Positions 18,572 through 28,784 of a stretch of DNA of 64,000 bases are shown here, one piece after another. The notes beneath the pieces are model-generated. The model was not told the DNA's origin. It worked only from the letters and a program-made list of their open reading frames with translations, and searched no databases. Position 1 is the first letter of the stretch, and each line of letters opens with the position of its first letter. The DNA is from Jiella sonneratiae (GTDB lineage: Bacteria > Pseudomonadota > Alphaproteobacteria > Rhizobiales > Rhizobiaceae): positions 62,001 to 126,000 of the forward strand of contig NZ_JAFMPY010000014.1 of assembly GCF_017353515.1 (NCBI RefSeq). The letters run 5' to 3'. The position numbers and the translations under genes were made by a program.

Positions 18572-18647
<76 letters not shown>

Positions 18648-18694: not shown

Positions 18695-19672
18695 TCACGC
18701 CGCGGCCGGACCGTCGAGCAGGGCCCGCGCGACGGCGGCGTGGGTGATCAGCGACTTGACGACGCCGCCCCTGATGGCGGCGAGGATCGCCGCGGTCTTC
18801 TCGGTGCCGAAGGCGAGCGCCAGGACGTCCGGGCAGGCCGACAGCTCCTCGGCGCTGATGCCGATCGACATCTCCGACAGGTCCGTTGCGACCGGACGGC
18901 CGTCGCCGTCGAGCGTCATGCCGCAGATCTCGGCGACGGCGCCGCGGGCTGTGACCCGCGCGCGCGCCTCGGGCGACAGCGCCGGCCAGAGCGACGAGGC
19001 GCCCTCGCGCCAGGCGCCGAGGCCGACGATGGCGAGCGTCACGGCCGAAAACATCGCCTTTGCCGCCAGGACGTCCGGCTGGCGGCGGATCGCCTCGGCG
19101 GCATGGGCGTCGCTCGCCACCAGCGGCGCGTAGAAGGTGTAGGCCCTGCCCCGCGTCAACACCGCGAGGTCGCGCACGAGGTCAACCGAGGTGCGGCTGG
19201 TGCCCGCCCCCGGCCAGGCGCCGCCGAGCTGGACGATCGCCTTCGCCTGCAGCGGTTTCAGATGCCGGCTCATCGCCTCGAGCACCCGCGTCCAGGCGAA
19301 GCCGAGCACCTCCTGCGGCCCCGAGATCTCCCGCAACAGCGCCGCGGCGACCTCGCCCATGCTGTCGAGGATCAGCTCGACGTCGCCGCCATGGTCGTCG
19401 ACGACGATCGCGTTCTTCAGGCCGAAGCGCGTCTTCAGGGCGCTCGACAGGTCGTACTGGACATGGCCCGCCGGATGCGAGAACTCGATCCGCACGATGC
19501 CGTCCCGCAGCGCCTTTTCGAGGATGCGCGCCACCCGGAAGCGGCTCATCGCCAGTTCCCCGGCGATCTCCGACTTGGTCTTGCCGTCGCAGTAGTACCG
19601 CCGGGCGACGGTGGTGGCGAGGATGTGCTCGGCAAAGCGGTCCTGGTCGTCCGATGTCGCTGGCCGGTTCAC
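18695..19672 (-). CDS. SorC/DeoR-type sugar-binding transcriptional regulator
   Basis: This 325-residue regulator has an N-terminal helix-turn-helix (ARRYYCDGKTKSEIAGELAMSRFRVARILEKA) and a C-terminal SorC effector domain related to sugar-phosphate isomerases (GLKNAIVVDDHGGDVELILDSMGE, VLGFAWTRVLEAM, ALAFGTEKTAAILAAIRGG). It starts at GTG 19672 after a G-rich stretch. It is divergent from the sulfatase-transporter operon, and matching palindromes lie between the two starts. The effector is likely a metabolite, perhaps phosphorylated, of the imported compound. Confidence 0.92.
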   Translation of the reverse strand: MNRPATSDDQDRFAEHILATTVARRYYCDGKTKSEIAGELAMSRFRVARILEKALRDGIVRIEFSHPAGHVQYDLSSALKTRFGLKNAIVVDDHGGDVELILDSMGEVAAALLREISGPQEVLGFAWTRVLEAMSRHLKPLQAKAIVQLGGAWPGAGTSRTSVDLVRDLAVLTRGRAYTFYAPLVASDAHAAEAIRRQPDVLAAKAMFSAVTLAIVGLGAWREGASSLWPALSPEARARVTARGAVAEICGMTLDGDGRPVATDLSEMSIGISAEELSACPDVLALAFGTEKTAAILAAIRGGVVKSLITHAAVARALLDGPAAA

Positions 19673-19690
19673 GCACCCATCCCCCGTTCG

Positions 19691-19704
19691 CGCTCATATG
19701 AGCG
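19691..19704. promoter_or_regulatory. Predicted SorC operator 1
   Basis: CGCTCATATGAGCG is a perfect 14-bp palindrome, 19 bp upstream of the regulator's start codon. The same core recurs at 19818-19829, 126 bp away, about 12 helical turns, so looping is possible. Confidence 0.65.
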
Positions 19705-19797
19705 CATACTCCCGCAGCCCGCCGACTGCAATCGCCGGCAATCCGGCCGTCGCGACGGATTCATAGCCGGGCGGCGTTGACTTGTCGCGCAAATGCC

Positions 19798-19829
19798 GCT
19801 CATATGATCAGAAAAAAGCTCATATGAGC
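19798..19829. promoter_or_regulatory. Predicted SorC operators 2 and 3 at the sulfatase promoter
   Basis: GCTCATATGATC (19798-19809) and GCTCATATGAGC (19818-19829) are spaced 20 bp centre to centre, about two helical turns. TTGACT at 19777 is a possible -35 and TATGAT (19803-19808), inside operator 2, a possible -10, though the spacing is loose at 20 nt. Binding here would block the sulfatase promoter. Confidence 0.65.
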
Positions 19830-19841
19830 AAGGTGAGGACC

Positions 19842-21335
19842 ATGGCAGCTTCGGCTCTCGCGCCGCGACCGAACATCCTTCTTCTGATGACCGACCAGCA
19901 GCGCTTCGACGCGCTCGGCTGTGCCGGCAATCCCGACATCCTGACGCCGAACCTCGACCGGCTGGCCGCCGCCGGCGCGATGTTCGAGACCTGCTACGTC
20001 CAGAATCCGATCTGCAGCCCGTCGCGGGCGAGCTTCGCGACCGGGCTTTATCCGCACAATCACGGCCTGTGGGCGAACGGCGTGGCGCTGCCCGAGGCGC
20101 TGCCGCTGATTTCCAAGGTGCTCGCCGACGGCGGCTACGACTGCGGCATGGCCGGCAAGCAGCATCTGGCGCCCTGCGCCAACGGCGACGAGCCGCGCCT
20201 CGACGACGGCTACCGGGTCTATCGCTGGTCGCACGATCCGATCCACCGCTCGCCGCAGAACAGCTACCATCTCTGGCTGAAGGCCAATCACCCGGAGATC
20301 TACGCCGAACTCGTCACCGCGCGGGCGGACGCCCCGGCCGAGGCCGGCAACGTCGCCAAGGGTGCGACACTCGCCGACACGCTGCCGGTCGAGGCCCATT
20401 ACAGCCACTGGATCGCCGAGGAGGCGATCGCCTTCATCGGCGAGGCGCGCGACCGGCCCTTCTACTTCATGGCCAACTTCTTCGACCCGCACCATCCCTT
20501 CGGCGCACCCGAGCCGTTCCGGGCGCTCTACGACGCCGCCGCCCTGCCGCTGCCGGTGGGCAGCGCCGGGGAACTCGCGGCAAAGCCCGCGGTCCAGCGC
20601 GAATATCACGCCAAATCCTATGGCGGCCATGCTCCGGGCTTTGCCGAATACAGCGAGGCGGAGCTGCGCGAGGCGCGGGCCGGCTACTACGCCATGGTCT
20701 CGATGATCGACGCCGAGGTCGGGCGGATCCTCGACGTCCTTCAAGCCACCGGCCAGCTCGACAACACGCTGGTCGTCTTCACCAGCGACCACGGCGAGAT
20801 GCTCGGCGACCACGCCATCATGCTGAAGGGCCCGATGCTCTACGAGCCGGTGGTCCGGGTGCCGCTGATCCTGCACTGGCCGCCCGCGATCGGCGCCGGC
20901 CAGAGGATCGGCCGGATCGTCCAGAACATCGACCTGACGGCGACGCTGCTCGACGTCAGCGGGATGCGGGACGCCCTTTCGGTGCAGGGCGAGAGCCTGA
21001 TGCCGCTCGTCGCCGAGCCGGCCGCGGGCGCGGCGGCCGGCCACCGCGACTGGGCCCTTTGCGAATATCGCGACAGCGGCCACGGCGCGACGCCGGCGGT
21101 CCACACCACCATGCTGCGCCACGGCTCGATGAAGCTGGTGATCTGGCACGGCAGCCCGGCGACCGACCGGACGCGCGACGGCGAACTCTACGACCTCGCG
21201 GCCGATCCGGACGAAACCGTCAACCTCTTTCACGATCCCGCCCGGCGCGACGACCGGGAGCGGATGAAGGATCTCCTGATCGACGTCCTCGAGGCGACGG
21301 AATGGCCCCGGCCGATCAGGACCGCGGAGTGGTAG
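19842..21335 (+). CDS. Cys-type sulfatase
   Basis: This 497-residue sulfatase hydrolyses a sulfate (or related) ester. The sequence C58-S-P-S-R matches the CxPxR motif whose Cys is oxidised to formylglycine. The N-terminal metal site (LLLMTDQQRFDALG) and the HGEMLGDHAIMLKGPMLYEPVVRVPLILHWP segment are typical of choline-sulfatase/arylsulfatase relatives. There is no signal peptide, so it acts in the cytoplasm on imported substrate. I chose ATG 19842 because AAGGTGAGG sits five bases before it; ATG 19824 lies within operator 3. A formylglycine-generating enzyme ends the same operon. Confidence 0.92.
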   Translation: MAASALAPRPNILLLMTDQQRFDALGCAGNPDILTPNLDRLAAAGAMFETCYVQNPICSPSRASFATGLYPHNHGLWANGVALPEALPLISKVLADGGYDCGMAGKQHLAPCANGDEPRLDDGYRVYRWSHDPIHRSPQNSYHLWLKANHPEIYAELVTARADAPAEAGNVAKGATLADTLPVEAHYSHWIAEEAIAFIGEARDRPFYFMANFFDPHHPFGAPEPFRALYDAAALPLPVGSAGELAAKPAVQREYHAKSYGGHAPGFAEYSEAELREARAGYYAMVSMIDAEVGRILDVLQATGQLDNTLVVFTSDHGEMLGDHAIMLKGPMLYEPVVRVPLILHWPPAIGAGQRIGRIVQNIDLTATLLDVSGMRDALSVQGESLMPLVAEPAAGAAAGHRDWALCEYRDSGHGATPAVHTTMLRHGSMKLVIWHGSPATDRTRDGELYDLAADPDETVNLFHDPARRDDRERMKDLLIDVLEATEWPRPIRTAEW

Positions 21336-21380
21336 CCCGCCGCTGAAGGCTGCCCGAGTTCAACGATGGGAGGAGAAACC

Positions 21381-22499
21381 ATGAAGACGCATGACGCAAA
21401 GGCCGGCTGGCACCGGCGCACCCTCATCCGGCTGGCCGGAACGCTCGGCCTCGCGGCCCTGGTCGCGCCGGGCGTCGCCGCCGCCCAGAACGCCGTGGTG
21501 GTGGCCCATGCCGCCGGCATCAACGGCCAGGCCGTCGAGGCGATCCTCAAGGACTACACCGCCGAGACCGGCGTGAAGGCCACCGGCATCACCATGTCGG
21601 ACACCGATTACGGCGCCAAGATGCAGCTCGCCGCGCGCACCGGCAACGTCGATTTCGACGTCGCGCTCGGCGTCGGCAGCGACGTCTTCGCCCTGACCAA
21701 GGGCGACGGCATCTATGCCGGCATCGACACGTCGGGCTGGAAGAAGGAAACGCTGGCCGGCATGCAGGAGGCCAAGCTGATCGGCGACGACTACGCCGTC
21801 TCCCAGGACACCGCCGCGCTGATGGTCTACGGCAAGGCGCTCGCCGACAACCCGCCGAAGACCTGGGGCGACTTCTTCGACACGAAGAAATATCCCGGCA
21901 ACCGCGGCATGGCATCGGGCGGCCTCGGCGTGCCGATCGACATCGAATACGCGCTGATCGCCAGCGGCAAGGACCCGGCGAAGCTCTACCCGCTCGACTA
22001 CGACGCCGCCTTCGCCGTCCTCGACAAGGTCGCCAAGGACATCGTCCTGTGGGACAATGCGCCGAAGGGCATCCAGGACCTCGTCAACGGCGACACGGTG
22101 ATGACCTGGTCCTACGCCCCGGCCGCGCTCAGCGCCATCGCCGCCGGCCAGGACATCAAGCTCGCGGCCCCTCCGGGAACCGCCGTCACCCGCCAGCTCG
22201 GCGTCGTCATGGCCAAGGGCCCGAACGGCGAGGATGCCGGCCAGGCCTTCTTCGCATGGTGGTTCCGGCCGGAAAACCAGAAGAAATACACCGAGCTCAC
22301 CAATTACGGCATCGTCGTGCCGTCCCAGGAGGTGCTGAAGCAGTTCTCGCCCGAGCAGTCGGCCTACATGCCGTTTTCCGGCGCCCATCCCGAGAACTAC
22401 CGCACGCTCGGCTACGACTACTACAGCGCCGAAGGCGACCTCGGGCAGAGCAATCTCGCCTTGACGCTCGACCGCTGGAACCAGTTCCGCGCCCGCTGA
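21381..22499 (+). CDS. ABC transporter substrate-binding protein, spermidine/putrescine type
   Basis: This 372-residue periplasmic protein has a long signal peptide (RRTLIRLAGTLGLAALVAPGVAAA-Q) with twin arginines at the start of its hydrophobic part. The mature protein follows the PotD/family-1 pattern (VDFDVALGVGSDVF, WGDFFDTKKYPGNRGM, VMTWSYAPAALSAI). ATG 21381 follows GGGAGGAG. It lies 45 bp after the sulfatase stop. The ligand is presumably the sulfated compound or its carrier molecule, inferred from context only. Confidence 0.88.
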   Translation: MKTHDAKAGWHRRTLIRLAGTLGLAALVAPGVAAAQNAVVVAHAAGINGQAVEAILKDYTAETGVKATGITMSDTDYGAKMQLAARTGNVDFDVALGVGSDVFALTKGDGIYAGIDTSGWKKETLAGMQEAKLIGDDYAVSQDTAALMVYGKALADNPPKTWGDFFDTKKYPGNRGMASGGLGVPIDIEYALIASGKDPAKLYPLDYDAAFAVLDKVAKDIVLWDNAPKGIQDLVNGDTVMTWSYAPAALSAIAAGQDIKLAAPPGTAVTRQLGVVMAKGPNGEDAGQAFFAWWFRPENQKKYTELTNYGIVVPSQEVLKQFSPEQSAYMPFSGAHPENYRTLGYDYYSAEGDLGQSNLALTLDRWNQFRAR

Positions 22500-22511
22500 C
22501 GGCCCGACGCC

Positions 22512-24272
22512 ATGGCTGCGACCCGACGACACGAACGGCAGGCGCGCGCCCCGCGCCTGCCCCGCCTCAGACTGGCGCTCGCCAGTCCGATCCTGCTCGG
22601 GCTGCCGGCGCTGATCTTCGTCGGCGTCTTCGCGATCTGGCCGCTGGCGGACTTTCTCTTCCAGGGCGTGATCGCCAAGGGCGAATTCTCGTTCATCCAG
22701 TTCCAGCGGCTGCTGGCCAGCACGACCTTCTTCATCGTGCTCGGCCGCACGCTGCTCGCCGCCGTCACCGTGACGGCGATCTGCCTCGTCCTCGCCTATC
22801 CGATGGCCTTCGCGCTGACCAAGGCGCGCGGCGGGCTGAAGACCGTGCTCATCGGCCTCGTCGTCCTTCCCTATCTCACCTCGGTGATCGTGCGCACCTA
22901 TGCCTGGGCGGCGCTGCTCGCCATCGAAGGGCCGGTCAACGACGCACTGACCGGGCTCGGCCTCGTCTCCGAGCCCATGCTGCTCGGCCACAGCGACTTC
23001 GGCACCTATGTCGGCATGACCCACATCCTCCTGCCGATCGCCGTTCTGACGCTCTGGTCGGGGCTCGAGAAGATCGACCCGCTACAGCGCACCGTCGCGG
23101 CCAGCCTCGGCGCCTCGCGGGTCGAGGCCTTCCTGACGGTGTTCCTGCCGCAGTCGGCGGCGGCGATGGCCTCGGCCGCCTCGCTCGTCTACATCCTGGC
23201 GCTCGGCGCCTACGTCATTCCCGCGACCCTCGGGGGAACCCGCGGCCTGCTCTTCGCCCAGCTCGTCGTCGAACAGGCGACCTCGCTCCTCAACTGGAAC
23301 CTGTCGGGCGCCATGGCGGTGGTCATGCTGGTCGCAGCCGCCCTTCCCGCCCTCGTCTTCGCGGCCTTGCGCAAAGTCGGCGCGCGCGCCGGCAGGGGCC
23401 GCGCCGTCGGCCGCGGCCAGGCGCTCTTCGCCCGCACGGTCCAGCCGGCGCTCGACCGCCTGCCCGACGCCCTGTGGACCTGGGGCTGGCGGATCGCGGC
23501 GGCCCTGGTGCTCGCCTTCCTTCTCGCCCCCGAGCTCGTCGTCTTCGCCTTTTCCTTCGGCCCCGAGCGGCAGATCACCTTCCCGCCCGCCTTTTTCACC
23601 CTCGACGGCTACGCTTCCACGCTGAGCGATCCCTCCTGGATGCAGCCGTTGAAGCGAAGCGTCGTCTATGCCCTGCTCGACGCCCTGATCGCGACGGCGC
23701 TCGGCGCGCTCGCCGCCTACGGCTTCGCGCGCGGCAAGGCCGCCTTCGCCGCGGCCGCGACGGCGCTCCTCGTGGTACCCGTGGTGCTGCCGGAGATCGT
23801 CATCGCGATCAGCTACTTCATCTTCGCCAACCGGATCGGCATCGCCGGCACGGCGGAAGCGATCGTGCTCGGCCAGGCGGCCTCCTGCGTCGGCCTCGTG
23901 GTCGTCATCCTCTCGACCATCGTGCGCCAGGTCGACGTCAACATCGAGCACGCCGCCACCATGTGCGGGGCCTCGCGCGCCCGGCTCCTGAAGGAGATCG
24001 TGCTGCCGCTGATCGCGCCGGGCCTCGTCGTCGCCTTCGTCTACGGCTTCCTGCACGCCTTCGACAATCTGGTGCTGCCGCTGTTCATCGCGGGCACCAA
24101 CGTCACCGTCCCGGTGCGCATGTTCCTGGCGCTCCAGGAAGAGCTGACCTCGGCGCCGGCGGTGATCGCCTCGCTGCTCATCGCCGTCCTCGTCCTCGGA
24201 CTGACGGCGGCGCTCACCCTGTCGCGGACCACCTCCCTCAAGATACCGCTTCTCGGCGGGAAAGACGCCTGA
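22512..24272 (+). CDS. Fused double ABC permease, PotB-PotC type
   Basis: This 586-residue inner-membrane protein joins two permease domains usually encoded separately. The first spans about residues 25-295 with EAA loop VAASLGASRVEAFLTVFLPQS, the second about 325-580 with HAATMCGASRARLLKEIVLPLI. A basic linker (RKVGARAGRGRAVGRGQ) joins them. One polypeptide therefore supplies the whole channel. It starts 12 bp after the binding-protein gene and abuts the ATPase gene. Confidence 0.9.
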   Translation: MAATRRHERQARAPRLPRLRLALASPILLGLPALIFVGVFAIWPLADFLFQGVIAKGEFSFIQFQRLLASTTFFIVLGRTLLAAVTVTAICLVLAYPMAFALTKARGGLKTVLIGLVVLPYLTSVIVRTYAWAALLAIEGPVNDALTGLGLVSEPMLLGHSDFGTYVGMTHILLPIAVLTLWSGLEKIDPLQRTVAASLGASRVEAFLTVFLPQSAAAMASAASLVYILALGAYVIPATLGGTRGLLFAQLVVEQATSLLNWNLSGAMAVVMLVAAALPALVFAALRKVGARAGRGRAVGRGQALFARTVQPALDRLPDALWTWGWRIAAALVLAFLLAPELVVFAFSFGPERQITFPPAFFTLDGYASTLSDPSWMQPLKRSVVYALLDALIATALGALAAYGFARGKAAFAAAATALLVVPVVLPEIVIAISYFIFANRIGIAGTAEAIVLGQAASCVGLVVVILSTIVRQVDVNIEHAATMCGASRARLLKEIVLPLIAPGLVVAFVYGFLHAFDNLVLPLFIAGTNVTVPVRMFLALQEELTSAPAVIASLLIAVLVLGLTAALTLSRTTSLKIPLLGGKDA

Positions 24273-24274
24273 CC

Positions 24275-25378
24275 ATGGCAGCGAATAGGGCAGCGAAGTC
24301 GGCCGGAGACTTAAGCTTCGTTCGGCTGGAATCGATCTCCAAGACCTATGGCGACGTGGTCGCCCTCGACGATGTCAGCCTCGACATCGCCGAAGGCGAG
24401 TTCCTGACCCTGCTCGGCCCGAGCGGCAGCGGCAAGACCACCTGCCTGCGCGCCATCGCCGGCATGTCGCGGCCCGACGCCGGGCGGCTCTCGATCGCCG
24501 GCCGCGACGTCTCCGCCGTCCCGATGAACCGCCGCAACATCGGCATGGTGTTCCAGAACTACTCGCTGTTTCCGCATCTCTCGGTGGCCCAGAACGTCGG
24601 CTATCCGCTGCGCGTGCGCCGGATCCCGGCCGCCGAGGCGGAGCGGCGGGTGGGCGAGGCGCTGGAGCTGGTGCGGCTTTCCGGATACGGGGCGCGGCGG
24701 CCGAGCGAACTGTCCGGCGGCCAGCAGCAGCGCGTGGCGCTCGCCCGCGCCCTCGTCTTCGAGCCGGACGTCCTCCTCCTCGACGAGCCGCTGTCGGCGC
24801 TCGACCGGGTGCTGCGCGAGGAGATGCAGCTCGAACTCAGGCGCATCCACCGCGAGATCGGCACGACGATGATCTGCGTGACCCACGACCGCTCCGAGGC
24901 GCTGACGATGTCCGACCGCATCGTCGTCATGCGGGCGGGGCGGATCGTCCAGGACGCGCCGCCGGAAAGCATCTATCTGAAGTCCGGCTCGCGCTTCGTC
25001 GCGGAATTCCTCGGCGAGGTGAACGTCCTGCCGATGACGCTGGGTGACGGCGCGCTCCTGCGCGACGCCGCCGGGCGGCCGCTCGCGGTCGAGACGGGCG
25101 AGCTTCCGGCCGGGCCGGTCGACGTGGTGGCGCGGGTCGAGCACGTGCGCCTGACCGCCGCCGGCAATGGCCGGTCTGGGGAAGGAGAATGGCGCGGCAT
25201 CGTCACGGAAGCGCTGTTCCTCGGCGATGCCGTGCGTTTCGTCGTCGACTGCGCGCCCCACACGATCACCGCGCGGCTGACGCTGGAACAGGCCCGGGGA
25301 ATCCGCCCCGGCGATGCGGTGACCGTCGACTTTTCCGGCGAGCCGCCCATGGTGTTCGAGGGGACGGGCGAGCGCTGA
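24275..25378 (+). CDS. ABC transporter ATPase, spermidine/putrescine type
   Basis: This 367-residue ATPase has Walker A GPSGSGKTT, the Q-loop FQNYSLFPHL, signature [16 protein letters not shown], Walker B VLLLDEPLSALD and the switch histidine in VTHDRSEAL. A C-terminal TOBE-like domain (residues about 240-367, VVARVEHVRLTAAGN and VTEALFLGDAVRFVV) may sense or regulate. It starts two bases after the permease stop. It should energise the fused permease. Confidence 0.93.
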   Translation: MAANRAAKSAGDLSFVRLESISKTYGDVVALDDVSLDIAEGEFLTLLGPSGSGKTTCLRAIAGMSRPDAGRLSIAGRDVSAVPMNRRNIGMVFQNYSLFPHLSVAQNVGYPLRVRRIPAAEAERRVGEALELVRLSGYGARRPSELSGGQQQRVALARALVFEPDVLLLDEPLSALDRVLREEMQLELRRIHREIGTTMICVTHDRSEALTMSDRIVVMRAGRIVQDAPPESIYLKSGSRFVAEFLGEVNVLPMTLGDGALLRDAAGRPLAVETGELPAGPVDVVARVEHVRLTAAGNGRSGEGEWRGIVTEALFLGDAVRFVVDCAPHTITARLTLEQARGIRPGDAVTVDFSGEPPMVFEGTGER

Positions 25379-25411
25379 CCGCGCCGTCGCGGATGGGAGT
25401 ATCACCGGACC

Positions 25412-26389
25412 ATGCCGACATCCGCCGACGCCGTGACCCCCGCTTGCCCCGCCCCCTCCGCGTCCGGCGCAAACGCCATGGTCCGCCTCGAGGGCGGCCG
25501 CTTCGTCATGGGATCGGACCGGTTCTATCCGGAGGAGCGCCCGGCGCATCCGGTGGAGGTGGGTCCGTTCCGGATCGATCGCCACGCCGTGAGCAACGAC
25601 GATTTCGACCGCTTCGTGAAGGCGACCGGCTACGTCACCACCGCCGAGATTCCGCTGTCGCGGGAAGAGATGCCCGGCGCGCCGGCCGAGCTGCTCGCCG
25701 CCGGTTCGCTGGTGTTCCGCAAGACCGACGGCCCGGTTCCGCTCCGCGACTTCCGCGCCTGGTGGCGCTTCGTGCCCGGCGCCTCGTGGCGCGCGCCGGA
25801 AGGCCCGGGCAGTTCCATCGACGGGCGCCGGGACCATCCGGTGGTCCACGTCTCCTTGCATGACGCCGCAGCCTATGCCGCCTGGGCGGGCAAGACGTTG
25901 CCGAGCGAGGCGCAGTGGGAATTCGCCGCCCGGGCTGGATCGGACACGACCTATCCCTGGGGCGACGACTTCACGCCGGACGGCCGGGTGATGGCCAACA
26001 CCTGGCATGGCGCCTTTCCCTTTCGCAACGACCGGGTCTGCGGCCCCGTCCTCACCTGCCCGGTCGATGCCTTCGAGCCCTCGGCCTTCGGCCTCTTCAA
26101 CATGATCGGCAACGTCTGGGAGTGGACGGCGACGAAGTTCACCGCCTCCCATAAAAGCCCTTCCCCCTGCTGCGCGCCCGGCGCGGGCGACGGGCCGGTC
26201 AGCCACGTCCTGAAGGGCGGCTCGTTCCTCTGCGCCCCGAGCTACTGCCGGCGCTACCGCGCCTCGGCCCGCAGTCCCCAGGAGGCCCGATCGTCCACGA
26301 ACCACATCGGCTTTCGCTGCGCCGCCCCGGCCGACGGCGATCCGGGCGGCCTTGCCGCTCGTCCGGCCCGGTCCGGCAGCGCCGGATAG
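25412..26389 (+). CDS. Formylglycine-generating enzyme (sulfatase maturase)
   Basis: This 325-residue copper-dependent oxidase converts the sulfatase Cys to formylglycine. The FGE-sulfatase fold starts at MVRLEGGRFVMGSDRFYPEE. The active-site pair is C274 and C279 in GGSFLCAPSYCRRYRASAR, with the same five-residue spacing as human Cys336/Cys341, and the end GFRCAAP matches. Other markers are LPSEAQWEFAARAG and GNVWEWT. Having both Cys separates it from catalytically different family members. It closes the sulfatase operon 33 bp after the ATPase. Confidence 0.92.
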   Translation: MPTSADAVTPACPAPSASGANAMVRLEGGRFVMGSDRFYPEERPAHPVEVGPFRIDRHAVSNDDFDRFVKATGYVTTAEIPLSREEMPGAPAELLAAGSLVFRKTDGPVPLRDFRAWWRFVPGASWRAPEGPGSSIDGRRDHPVVHVSLHDAAAYAAWAGKTLPSEAQWEFAARAGSDTTYPWGDDFTPDGRVMANTWHGAFPFRNDRVCGPVLTCPVDAFEPSAFGLFNMIGNVWEWTATKFTASHKSPSPCCAPGAGDGPVSHVLKGGSFLCAPSYCRRYRASARSPQEARSSTNHIGFRCAAPADGDPGGLAARPARSGSAG

Positions 26390-26455: not shown

Positions 26456-26794
26456 TCAGTGGCTGATCATCCAGGGGCGCTTGCCGACGAAGGACTTGGC
26501 CGCCGCCGCCGGCGCCGCCCCGGCCTGCGACGGCTTCCGCCTCGCCGGGCCGCAGCAGCCGCAGCCGGCGCCGTGGCCCTTCGACGCGAGCGTCGGGGCG
26601 TTGGCGCTCCGCTCGTTGGTGGCGAAGGCCGAGCGCCTCGCGCCGTCCATGATCGACAGGCGCGGCGCCTGAAGGATCACTCGCCTGGCGCTCTCGCCGC
26701 ATTGCGGACAATCGCAGGGCTCGGACGCCTGCGCCATGGGGCGCAGGCTGGTGAAGGACCCGCAGTCGTCGCAGGCATAGTCGTAGAACGGCAT
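26456..26794 (-). CDS. fmdB: FmdB-family zinc-ribbon protein
   Basis: This 112-residue protein starts with the FmdB pattern MPFYDYACDDCGSFTSLRPM, followed by the second Cys pair in CDCPQCGESARRVI, together forming a zinc ribbon. The C-terminal half is Ala/Gly/Lys-rich and less structured, with another CGCC cluster. In Methylophilus, FmdB is a putative regulator of formamidase. It follows fmdA by six bases on the same strand. Confidence 0.88.
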   Translation of the reverse strand: MPFYDYACDDCGSFTSLRPMAQASEPCDCPQCGESARRVILQAPRLSIMDGARRSAFATNERSANAPTLASKGHGAGCGCCGPARRKPSQAGAAPAAAAKSFVGKRPWMISH

Positions 26795-26800
26795 GTCGCC

Positions 26801-28030
26801 TCACAGATCCTTGGCGAGCGGCACGTCGATCGAGCCGTCGAGGAACTTCGTCGGACCGTCGGCGCCGGGCATCACGTCGAATTCGAAGATGTCGGTCGGC
26901 AGCCACAGCGTCGCGCAGGCATTGGGAATGTCGACCACGCCGGAGATGTGGCCCTGGCAGGGCGCGGTGCCGAGGATGGCGTAGGCCTGGGCGCCGGAGA
27001 AACCGAATTTTTTCAGATATTCGATCGCGTTGAGACATGCCTGGCGATAGGCGATGTGGACGTCGAGATAATGCTGCTTGCCGGCCTCATCGACGGAAAT
27101 GCCCTCGAAGATCAGGTAGTCGTCGTATTTGGGGGTGATCGGCGACGGCTTAAAGATGGGGTTCTTGATCCCGTATTTCGCCATGCCGCCCTTGATGAGG
27201 CTGACCTTCAGATGCAGCCAGCCGGCCATTTCGATGGCGCCGCAGAAGGTGATCTCGCCGTCGCCCTGGCTGAAGTGGAGGTCTCCCATCGAGAGGCCGG
27301 CGCCGTCGACATAGACCGGGAAATAGATCTTCGAGCCTCGCGAAAGATCCTTGATATCGCAATTGCCGCCATGTTCGCGCGGCGGCACGGTGCGGGCGCC
27401 CTCGGCCGCCGCCTTGTCGCGCGCTTCGCCCGTCATCTTGCCCATATGCGCCGACTGAGTGGTGGGCAGCGCGGCAAGCTGGGGCACCCGCTCGGGCTCG
27501 GTGTCGAACAGCGCCTTCTCGCGGGTGTTCCACATGTCGAGCATCGCCCGATCCGGCAGGCATCCGATGAGGCCCGGATGGATGAGGCCGGCATAGCGCA
27601 CGCCCGGCACGTGGCGTGATCTCGTGAACATGCCCTCGATGTCCCAGATCGACTTCTGGGCCTCGGGGAAATGCTCGGTCAGGAAGCCGCCGCCATTCTG
27701 CTTGGAGAAGAAGCCGTTGAACCCCCAGAGGCTGTCTTCCTTGGCGCCGATGTCGAGGATGTCGACCACGAGGAGGTCGCCGGGCTCGGCCCCCTTCACG
27801 CCGATCGGGCCGGAGAGATAGTGGACCTGCTCGAGCTCGACGTCGCGCACGTCTTCGGCGGAATCGTCGTTCTTGATCTGGCCGCCGGTCCAGTCGTAGG
27901 TCTCGATCTTGAAGTCGTCGCCCGGCGCCACCCAGCAGGCCATCGGAATGTCGGGGTGCCAGCGATTGTGGATCATCTCGTTGTCGTGCGGCGAGGTGGT
28001 CAGGTCGACCTTGATCAAGGTGTCGGGCAT
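26801..28030 (-). CDS. fmdA: Formamidase
   Basis: This 409-residue cytoplasmic enzyme hydrolyses formamide to formate and ammonia. Family stretches include HNRWHPDIPMACWVAPGDDFKIETYDWTGGQIKNDDSAEDV at the N-terminus, YLSGPIGVKGAEPGDLLVVDI, and GGNCDIKDLSRGSKIYFPVYVDGAGLSMGDLHFSQGDGE in the centre. The length is typical. It sits downstream of an urtABCDE-type importer and upstream of fmdB, as in the amide-utilisation cluster of Methylophilus, so the importer probably delivers short-chain amides or urea. Confidence 0.93.
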   Translation of the reverse strand: MPDTLIKVDLTTSPHDNEMIHNRWHPDIPMACWVAPGDDFKIETYDWTGGQIKNDDSAEDVRDVELEQVHYLSGPIGVKGAEPGDLLVVDILDIGAKEDSLWGFNGFFSKQNGGGFLTEHFPEAQKSIWDIEGMFTRSRHVPGVRYAGLIHPGLIGCLPDRAMLDMWNTREKALFDTEPERVPQLAALPTTQSAHMGKMTGEARDKAAAEGARTVPPREHGGNCDIKDLSRGSKIYFPVYVDGAGLSMGDLHFSQGDGEITFCGAIEMAGWLHLKVSLIKGGMAKYGIKNPIFKPSPITPKYDDYLIFEGISVDEAGKQHYLDVHIAYRQACLNAIEYLKKFGFSGAQAYAILGTAPCQGHISGVVDIPNACATLWLPTDIFEFDVMPGADGPTKFLDGSIDVPLAKDL

Positions 28031-28094
28031 GCCGTTTCACTCCTTCGTGGGTGGTTTCGGAGGCTTTGCGTCGGTCGAGCGGCGCGAATGTCCG

Positions 28095-28784
28095 TCATAC
28101 CGACAGGTATTTCGCGACCTTCGACTCATCGACCTCGGCAATCGGCTCGTCATGGACGAGCTCGCCGTTTTCGAGCACGAGCACCCGGTCGGCGATGTCG
28201 AGGGCGAAGGACAGGACCTGTTCGGAAACGACGATGGAGAGGCCCTTCTCGTCGCGGATTTTCTTGAGGGTGCGCCCCATGTCGCGGATGATCGACGGCT
28301 GGATGCCCTCGGTCGGCTCGTCGAGGAGCAGCACCTTGGGCCGCGAGGCGAGAGCGCGGGCGACGGCGAGCTGCTGCTGCTGGCCGCCCGAAAGGTTGCC
28401 GCCCCGGCGCTTGCGCATTTCCAGAAGCACCGGAAACAGCTCGTAGATGTCGCCCGGGACGGCGGTCTCGCCGGTGACGGTCAGGCCGGTCTCGATGTTC
28501 TCGCGCACCGTCATGGTCGAGAAGATCATGCGGCCCTGCGGAACGTAGCCGACGCCGCCTTTGACGCGCTCGTGGCTCTTGGCGTTGGTGATGTCGGCGC
28601 CGTCGACATTGACCCTGCCGGATTTCGTCGGCACCAGCCCCATCAGCGACTTCATCAGCGTCGTCTTGCCCATGCCGTTGCGGCCCATGATCGCGACGAT
28701 CTCGCCGGGGGCGACGGTGAAGTTGAGCCCGTGCAGCACCTCGCTGGAGCCATAGGCGACATGCAGGCCGGAAACGTTCAGCAT
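28095..28784 (-). CDS. urtE: Urea/short-chain amide ABC transporter ATPase UrtE
   Basis: This 229-residue ATPase of the branched-chain/urea importer group has Walker A MGRNGMGKTT, signature LSGGQQQQLAVARAL and Walker B VLLLDEPTEGI, the last typical of UrtE. It begins 10 bases after the urtD stop and is followed by fmdA. Confidence 0.92.
   Translation of the reverse strand: MLNVSGLHVAYGSSEVLHGLNFTVAPGEIVAIMGRNGMGKTTLMKSLMGLVPTKSGRVNVDGADITNAKSHERVKGGVGYVPQGRMIFSTMTVRENIETGLTVTGETAVPGDIYELFPVLLEMRKRRGGNLSGGQQQQLAVARALASRPKVLLLDEPTEGIQPSIIRDMGRTLKKIRDEKGLSIVVSEQVLSFALDIADRVLVLENGELVHDEPIAEVDESKVAKYLSV

Follow-up and report, generated by a model that had tools for sequence, protein, structure and literature searches.

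Organic sulfate esters form a large pool of sulfur in soil and marine environments. We analysed a 64,000-nucleotide stretch of the Jiella sonneratiae genome (contig NZ_JAFMPY010000014.1, positions 62,001 to 126,000; the window), in which positions 18695-26389 contain six intact genes. A gene for a SorC-family transcriptional regulator lies on the minus strand and diverges from five plus-strand genes, which encode a sulfatase, a periplasmic solute-binding protein (SBP), the permease and the ATPase of an ABC importer, and a formylglycine-generating enzyme (FGE). The gaps between the five genes are 30, 12, 2, and 33 bp when the SBP gene is counted from position 21366, and by this spacing they form one operon. 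All six gene products scored above their family cut-offs in a Pfam scan. An earlier reading of the same letters, made without database searches (the sequence-only reading), had described a SorC regulator facing one operon, and both the PF04198 match of the regulator and the tight plus-strand spacing bear this out.

The first gene of the operon (19842..21335, plus strand) encodes a putative cytoplasmic Cys-type (formylglycine) sulfatase of 497 aa (PF00884, 166.8 bits). When translated from the ATG at 19842, which is preceded by AAGGTGAGG, the protein carries the motif C58-S-P-S-R; an alternative ATG at 19824, which would give C64, sits inside a palindrome. In an alignment of 17 rows, D18, C58, P60, R62, H217, D316, H317, and K329 are invariant, and Q19, N79, K106, and H108 are nearly invariant, with D18, D316, and H317 serving as metal ligands. 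Judged by this motif and these residues, the sulfatase is predicted to be a catalytically complete type I (formylglycine) enzyme. As the metal ligand D18 stands only 17 residues after the start, a signal peptide would not fit ahead of it. The cytoplasmic Cys-type sulfatase with C58-S-P-S-R of the sequence-only reading is thus upheld if translation begins at ATG 19842.

The last gene of the operon (25412..26389, plus strand) encodes an FGE of 325 aa (PF03781, 252.4 bits) whose best solved match is the FGE 6s07 (E 3.6e-71). The catalytic pair C274 and C279, which the sequence-only reading had pointed out, lies in GGSFLCAPSYCRRYR. With PF03781 above its cut-off and paired Cys residues, the protein is predicted to be an aerobic formylglycine-generating enzyme, and its N-terminus does not read as signal-like.

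The importer genes lie between these two, also on the plus strand: the SBP gene (21381..22499; SBP_bac_8, PF13416, 107.1 bits), the gene of a fused two-domain ABC permease of 586 aa (22512..24272; BPD_transp_1, PF00528, 54.9 bits, in two stretches), and that of an ABC transporter ATP-binding protein with a TOBE domain (24275..25378; ABC_tran, PF00005, 130.5 bits; TOBE_2, PF08402). The SBP reading frame opens at 21366, and ATG 21381 is its more likely start because GGAGGAG lies upstream; ATG 24275 is the likelier start of the ATPase gene. By sequence, the solved proteins nearest to the SBP are 3rpw (an ABC transporter), a mannopine protein, 4i1d, GABA sensors, and a polyamine-labelled protein, and no NCBIfam model matched the SBP at E <= 1e-5. 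The first half of the permease is PotB-like and the second PotC-like; the permease scores 144.8 bits against the PotB model (cut-off 348) and the ATPase 341 bits against potA (cut-off 355.6). The importer is predicted to belong to the polyamine/opine/GABA class, that is, to the polyamine superfamily but not as a Pot equivalog. The spermidine/putrescine-type importer with a fused permease that had been proposed earlier therefore survives as to superfamily and permease fusion and fails as an equivalog, since its NCBIfam scores fall below the cut-offs. A structure prediction of the SBP from two sequences had a mean pLDDT of 33.3 and was not used.

The regulator gene (18695..19672, minus strand) encodes 325 aa from a GTG start (PF04198, 182.6 bits). 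In full-length alignment, the nearest solved proteins are the sorbitol operon regulator 2w48 and LsrR, and the PF04198 effector domain is combined with an N-terminal helix-turn-helix and with palindromic candidate operators, as in regulators of the SorC/DeoR type. ARAGORN additionally calls a tRNA-Gln at 18935-19019, inside this coding region and on the same strand, which is probably false. The genes for the regulator, sulfatase, SBP, permease, and ATPase are found in the same order in Martelella mediterranea IOP_24 (locus L009), with 57, 72, 69, 71, and 73% identity, respectively. The two loci share genes, order, three operators, and operator spacing; they differ in that the Martelella operon ends in a transposase fragment and has no FGE there.

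Three palindromes are located between the divergent genes. O1, GCGCTCATATGAGCGC (19690..19705), adjoins the regulator gene and is found as the same site in Martelella (L009:9832). O2, GCTCATATGATC (19798..19809), covers the likely -10 region and O3, GCTCATATGAGC (19818..19829), lies directly ahead of the ribosome-binding site; all three are proposed operators of the SorC protein. In both genomes O2 lies 106 bp from O1, and O3 lies 20 bp from O2. Within the 64 kb, GCTCATATGAGC occurs three times at no more than one mismatch, as against 0.12 expected, and all three places fall between the regulator and the sulfatase start; two further places appear at two mismatches. The Martelella palindromes carry 0, 2, and 1 mismatches (the O2 counterpart being the one with 2) at identical spacing, and the flanking sequence has largely diverged. 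Three sites at up to two mismatches were obtained in 0/2000 shuffles of either intergenic region. By eye, TTGACT at 19777..19782 (plus strand) may be the -35 element of the operon promoter, and TTGACG is similarly placed in Martelella, so that a TTGAC motif stands ahead of O2 in both. Elsewhere in the window's genome the pattern GCTCATATGAKC occurs once, inside a frame called coding, and in Martelella at two further places, one of which is within coding frames at the start of one frame. According to the available part of one report, SorC repressors are tetramers on paired half-operators, and their effector domains are phosphosugar-binding folds (PMC11229326). We regard the palindromes as a good indication that the SorC protein, which would bind at these sites, acts as a specific repressor. 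Taken together, the five shared genes and their operators are predicted to constitute a conserved, specifically regulated import-and-desulfate unit.

In the sampled genomes, the operon is rare and its occurrence scattered. A scan for close relatives of the sulfatase among 84,980 species genomes, from which the window's own or near-identical genome records may be omitted, returned three loci, namely that of Martelella, one of Sciscionella (56% identity), and one of a Thermomicrobiales metagenome-assembled genome (MAG; 55%), whose contig is only 4.2 kb. The 21 kb Sciscionella locus contains no match to the window importer. At E <= 1e-100 the sulfatase was found in 6/297 genomes of the window's order, its own included, and a class-wide search of 385 genomes at E <= 1e-150 returned only the window's own copy. 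The SBP was found in one of the same 297 genomes at E <= 1e-70 (its own) and in one of 296 genomes of Martelella's family at E <= 1e-60 (Martelella itself). These genome searches score 4 to 7 candidates per genome, and copies can be missed. In the sulfatase tree, the window enzyme belongs to an eight-row clade (support 99/100) that spans Actinomycetota and Thermomicrobiota. The genes beside its members vary: a polyamine-class importer in the window and Martelella; a LacI regulator, a GH2 glycosidase, and a sugar porter in Sciscionella; a sugar-type binding protein with permeases in genome G145; and peptide-type importers in G115 and beside one G183 copy. No importer was noticed beside the other G183 copy, and the MAG copy lies at a contig end.

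We propose that the locus is probably a substrate-inducible import-and-desulfate unit. Without substrate, the SorC regulator, probably as a tetramer, would occupy the three palindromes; O2 and O3 would cover the operon promoter, and O1, 106 bp away, would allow looping and autorepression. The periplasmic SBP would then capture a small sulfate ester that the ABC transporter, to judge from the protein families and the operon, could import intact. The FGE would oxidise Cys58 of the sulfatase to formylglycine, and the cytosolic sulfatase, by the chemistry its conserved catalytic residues suggest, would release sulfate and the free alcohol. The inducer that lifts SorC repression may be the imported ester or the product formed from it. 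The presence of the FGE gene in the operon may match the supply of maturase to sulfatase synthesis and make the unit portable. Uptake followed by desulfation inside the cell had already been put forward by the sequence-only reading, and is supported by the N-termini of the sulfatase and the FGE, neither of which looks signal-like, and by the conservation of the five-gene unit and its operators in Martelella.

Several observations weigh against this proposal. None of the operon genes encodes an enzyme that would process the desulfated product, and the classes of the SBP and of the regulator point to somewhat different ligand types. A scan with a consensus promoter reports no promoter in the region. 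A perfect extra palindrome lies in Martelella (L052:173-184, on G677:C45), 14 bp upstream of a TetR-type gene, so the SorC regulator may have other targets there. Among the samples searched, the whole five-gene operon is present in one relative only, and the 21 kb Martelella operon locus contains no FGE match, the single match being on another contig. Since the FGE is absent from the only other operon copy found, a dedicated maturase role is not supported by conservation.

The explanation that competes best concerns the FGE, which could be a general maturase placed by chance at the operon end, serving all formylglycine sulfatases of the cell, with the import unit independent of it. This is quite possible, if somewhat short of an even chance. 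In its favour, the FGE of Martelella is not linked to the five shared genes, the window's genome contains a second FGE and five sulfatases, and the window FGE falls outside the clade of most importer-linked FGEs, as if added from elsewhere. Against it, the FGE gene follows the ATPase gene by 33 bp on the same strand, and the combination of FGE, sulfatase, and importer recurs nearby in the order (18/75 loci at 8 kb, see below). Moreover, an open stretch in Martelella (L009:15549-15914), 74 bases past the ATPase gene, matches part of an IS240-type transposase domain (57.4 bits). As this fragment stands where the FGE would be, the end of the Martelella operon is a rearranged spot at which the FGE could have been lost. 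The claim that the maturase is dedicated to the operon sulfatase thus retains the 33 bp linkage in the window and is weakened by the unlinked FGE of Martelella and the transposase fragment at that site. The linkage of FGE and operon in relatives, by which it was to be judged, was neither recovered nor cleanly refuted, as the one relative lacks the FGE and has the transposase fragment instead.

FGE genes were surveyed in the 297 genomes of the order at E <= 1e-35, and 62 of these, the window's own included, had a match. Excluding the two FGEs of the window's genome, 75 matches remained, around each of which up to 19 kb was fetched, less at contig ends. Sulfatase and importer genes were called there by blastp or tblastn against our own references, which were mostly named by eye; ten proteins, six of them importer or regulator references, were checked with Pfam. 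Both a sulfatase and an importer gene lie within 3 kb of the FGE at 3/75 loci, within 5 kb at 11/75, and within 8 kb at 18/75, a nearness that does not prove one operon. Among these 18, the importer genes are of the sugar ABC type at six loci and of the tripartite tricarboxylate type at five others. We assigned FGEs to type 2 or type W (scoring nearer the window FGE) by the better tblastn score, which makes W a score class and not a supported clade, with L138 and L159 uncertain as W. The FGEs of the 27 type-2 loci fall in one 31-row clade (support 100/99), together with the second FGE of the window's genome and FGEs of Martelella, Shinella, and Chelativorans; the fragment L159 was too short for this tree and was left out, and two Sciscionella rows with branch lengths of 10, most probably translated in a wrong frame, were disregarded. 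Sulfatase and importer are both present at 15/27 type-2 loci; type-W loci have a sulfatase in 42/48 cases and both genes in 3/48. The difference between 15/27 and 3/48 (Fisher test, p = 3e-6) is descriptive only, because the test ignores shared ancestry. Excluding the loci of the window's genome, a hydrophobic stretch precedes the first-strand motif in 21/26 sulfatases beside W-type FGEs and in 0/12 beside type-2 FGEs, the latter resembling the window sulfatase in this respect; this proxy for a signal is rough, as it covers recognised motifs only (26/51 for W and 12/21 for type 2) and stop-to-stop frames may count residues ahead of the start. The window FGE itself pairs with that of locus L085 (98/93) outside the type-2 clade, although its deeper placement is weak (88/69).

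That nearest relative (L085:9081-15483, genome G100) has a nitrile hydratase alpha gene and ABC genes of the NMT1 type in its vicinity. The ABC genes were labelled by similarity to locus L113, where Pfam was used, and no sulfatase was found within 8 kb of the FGE by the references applied. Locus L113 (L113:4961-12852, G250) is another complete set, with a LacI regulator facing a sulfatase, a W-type FGE, an NMT1-type ABC importer, and a second sulfatase.

Arrangements with an FGE near sulfatase and importer genes are hence recurrent. The window operon represents a variant in which the importer is of the polyamine/opine class and the FGE does not fall in the usual clade. The sequence-only reading had not recognised the arrangement as a described pathway, which is only half right. 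Sets of FGE, sulfatase, and importer do recur, in the order, in the same genome, and on Shinella and Chelativorans plasmids, and the importers there are of other kinds. The grouping with other importers is already recurrent, and the version with a polyamine/opine-class importer appears to be new. Among the papers that a literature search listed, we found none on an operon of polyamine-class importer, sulfatase, and FGE, nor on these FGE types, which is weak evidence of novelty. Tentatively, and with a little less than even confidence, we hypothesize that one FGE clade of the order moves as part of portable import-and-desulfate cassettes. The importer of such a cassette (sugar ABC, tripartite tricarboxylate, peptide-type ABC, NMT1-type ABC, or polyamine-type ABC) would change along with the substrate, and the other FGEs would mostly stand beside exported sulfatases. 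The window operon would then be a hybrid: its cytosolic sulfatase and importer make up a cassette, and the FGE that serves them does not belong to the cassette clade. Such an operon would provide an undescribed way of using a sulfated compound that resembles a sugar or polyol.

As to the substrate of the proposed import-and-desulfate unit, our best guess, which we would not put at even odds, is a low-molecular-weight sulfated sugar, amino sugar, or polyol rather than choline-O-sulfate. Such a compound is favoured by the phosphosugar-binding effector folds of SorC proteins and by the neighbours of some clade relatives. The kinship of the SBP with mannopine and GABA proteins would fit an amine-bearing substrate of this kind. 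The peptide-type importers beside other members of the eight-row sulfatase clade do not support a sugar or polyol. A charged or zwitterionic substrate instead of a plain sugar, as had been suggested from the importer type, finds no support in the effector domains of SorC proteins, as far as the available part of the report describes them (PMC11229326), or in the LacI, GH2, and sugar porter genes beside the same-clade sulfatase of Sciscionella. It may nevertheless be right, as the peptide-type importers beside other clade members would allow it.

Another possibility, though an unlikely one, is that this alkaline phosphatase (AP)-superfamily enzyme is a phosphonate monoester hydrolase (PMH) or phosphodiester hydrolase and that a phosphonate ester is what the importer takes up. 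Formylglycine PMHs are closely related, and 2-aminoethylphosphonate permeases are distant relatives of the window permease; the PehA model for phosphoric/sulfuric ester hydrolases gives 214 bits (cut-off 900) and the PhnU2 permease model 94.5 bits (cut-off 593). PMHs, however, carry a Tyr/Thr form in place of the Lys/His pair. In the alignment, which has no chain named as a PMH, the K106/H108 pair of the window enzyme aligns with GKTH in 4upl and GYTD in 4uph, and the genes noticed next to the operon include none for phosphonates.

Use of choline-O-sulfate, or of a very similar quaternary amine sulfate, is less probable still, and we regard it as very unlikely. The importer superfamily carries amines, as the names of the nearest solved SBPs also indicate, and the sulfatase matches the choline-sulfatase model TIGR03417 with 210 bits. 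We rejected its identification as a choline sulfatase, for which the TIGR03417 cut-off is 433 bits; the C-terminal oligomerisation tail is absent from it in the 17-row alignment. A separate true BetC is encoded in the same genome (contig C20, 886 bits). In the accessible portion of a study of the choline sulfatase SmCS, Glu386 binds the quaternary ammonium group and the C-terminal tail of BetC is described (PMC5870055). The position of Glu386 seems to be Ser in the window enzyme after an offset correction by hand (three residues; the plain offset gives Tyr), with an Asp one column before. It is most improbable that the locus serves a xenobiotic such as acesulfame, whether sulfamate or sulfate. 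The Shinella acesulfame sulfatase is the closest characterised enzyme found (41% identity by tblastn, 43% by alignment), but it belongs to a separate clade (98/99) away from the eight-row clade of the window enzyme, so that its activity cannot be transferred.

Convergent with the operon, the opposite strand at 26456-28784 carries genes for a formamidase FmdA (776 bits), a small zinc-ribbon protein, and an ABC ATPase. A tRNA-Thr gene stands at 18572-18647, and we found no repeats of at least 14 bases of its 3' end that would mark an island boundary in the window and the downstream stretches of contig C4 (C4:1-62000 was outside the search). GC content sets neither the operon nor the FGE gene clearly apart.

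Few sulfatases have a known substrate, as stated in the available part of one report (PMC5066984). One sulfatase tied to one importer and one regulator offers a direct route to the substrate, as both the SBP and the regulator can be screened for ligands, and in the compact window operon such screening can reveal it. The recurrence of an FGE beside such genes further suggests that the need for a maturase limits the horizontal spread of cytosolic sulfatases, a need that a co-carried maturase would solve.

A second unit of FGE, regulator, ABC importer, and sulfatase is present in the window's own genome, on the same contig as the window (L008, contig C4:124000-140000, 7046-14838; C4 131-138.8 kb). 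Its FGE and LysR genes are on the minus strand, and the sugar-type ABC importer, sulfatase, and UgpC-like ATPase genes on the plus strand. It differs from the window operon in its LysR regulator, its sugar-type importer with a UgpC-like ATPase, its sulfatase of 36% identity, and its type-2 FGE. Two further sulfatases lie near the end of contig C4. A beta-keto acid cleavage (KCE-type) gene is located near an FGE unit both here (L008:2943-3875) and in Shinella WSC3-e (L160:521-1477).

Among characterised systems, a sulfate-ester importer adjoining a sulfatase is known from Pseudomonas putida, whose atsRBC transport genes accompany an arylsulfatase. BetC with betI and the other bet genes (S. meliloti, Ruegeria) resembles the window operon in that a formylglycine-type sulfatase acts on a small imported alkyl sulfate under a substrate-responsive regulator. 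It differs by its TetR regulator and BetT transporter, and no FGE is named in the cluster descriptions available from these reports (PMC12442346, PMC5870055).

The formylglycine sulfatase of Shinella sp. WSC3-e hydrolyses acesulfame, and on proteomic grounds the FGE PF0003 of plasmid PF is possibly involved in its maturation, according to the part of the study available (PMC11500405). By gene order, PF0003 appears to be WP_272792138.1, an FGE gene found on Shinella plasmids with LacI, a sugar-type ABC importer, and sulfatases. A plasmid of strain WSD5-1 (locus L033, NZ_OZ012603.1) carries a copy of the acesulfame sulfatase gene whose protein accession is identical to that on pjSHIWSC3. Immediately downstream of this copy come an IS6 transposase gene and a unit of FGE, LacI, sugar-type ABC importer, and sulfatase, which suggests that the acesulfame sulfatase gene may have come from such an FGE unit. 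Genome G202 (L025 and L158) encodes an enzyme closely related to the acesulfame sulfatase, with a short branch in the sulfatase tree; a type-2 FGE and importer genes of the sugar type lie some 9 kb away. The Shinella unit, as described in the available part of the study for plasmids pj and pf of WSC3-e and pg of WSD5-1 (PMC11500405), is thus similar to the window operon in its formylglycine sulfatase of about 500 aa and in bringing FGE, regulator, ABC importer, and sulfatases together, there on plasmids. It differs in that its sulfatase, 41-43% identical, belongs to another clade, its importer is of the sugar type, its regulator is LacI, and its FGE is of type 2.

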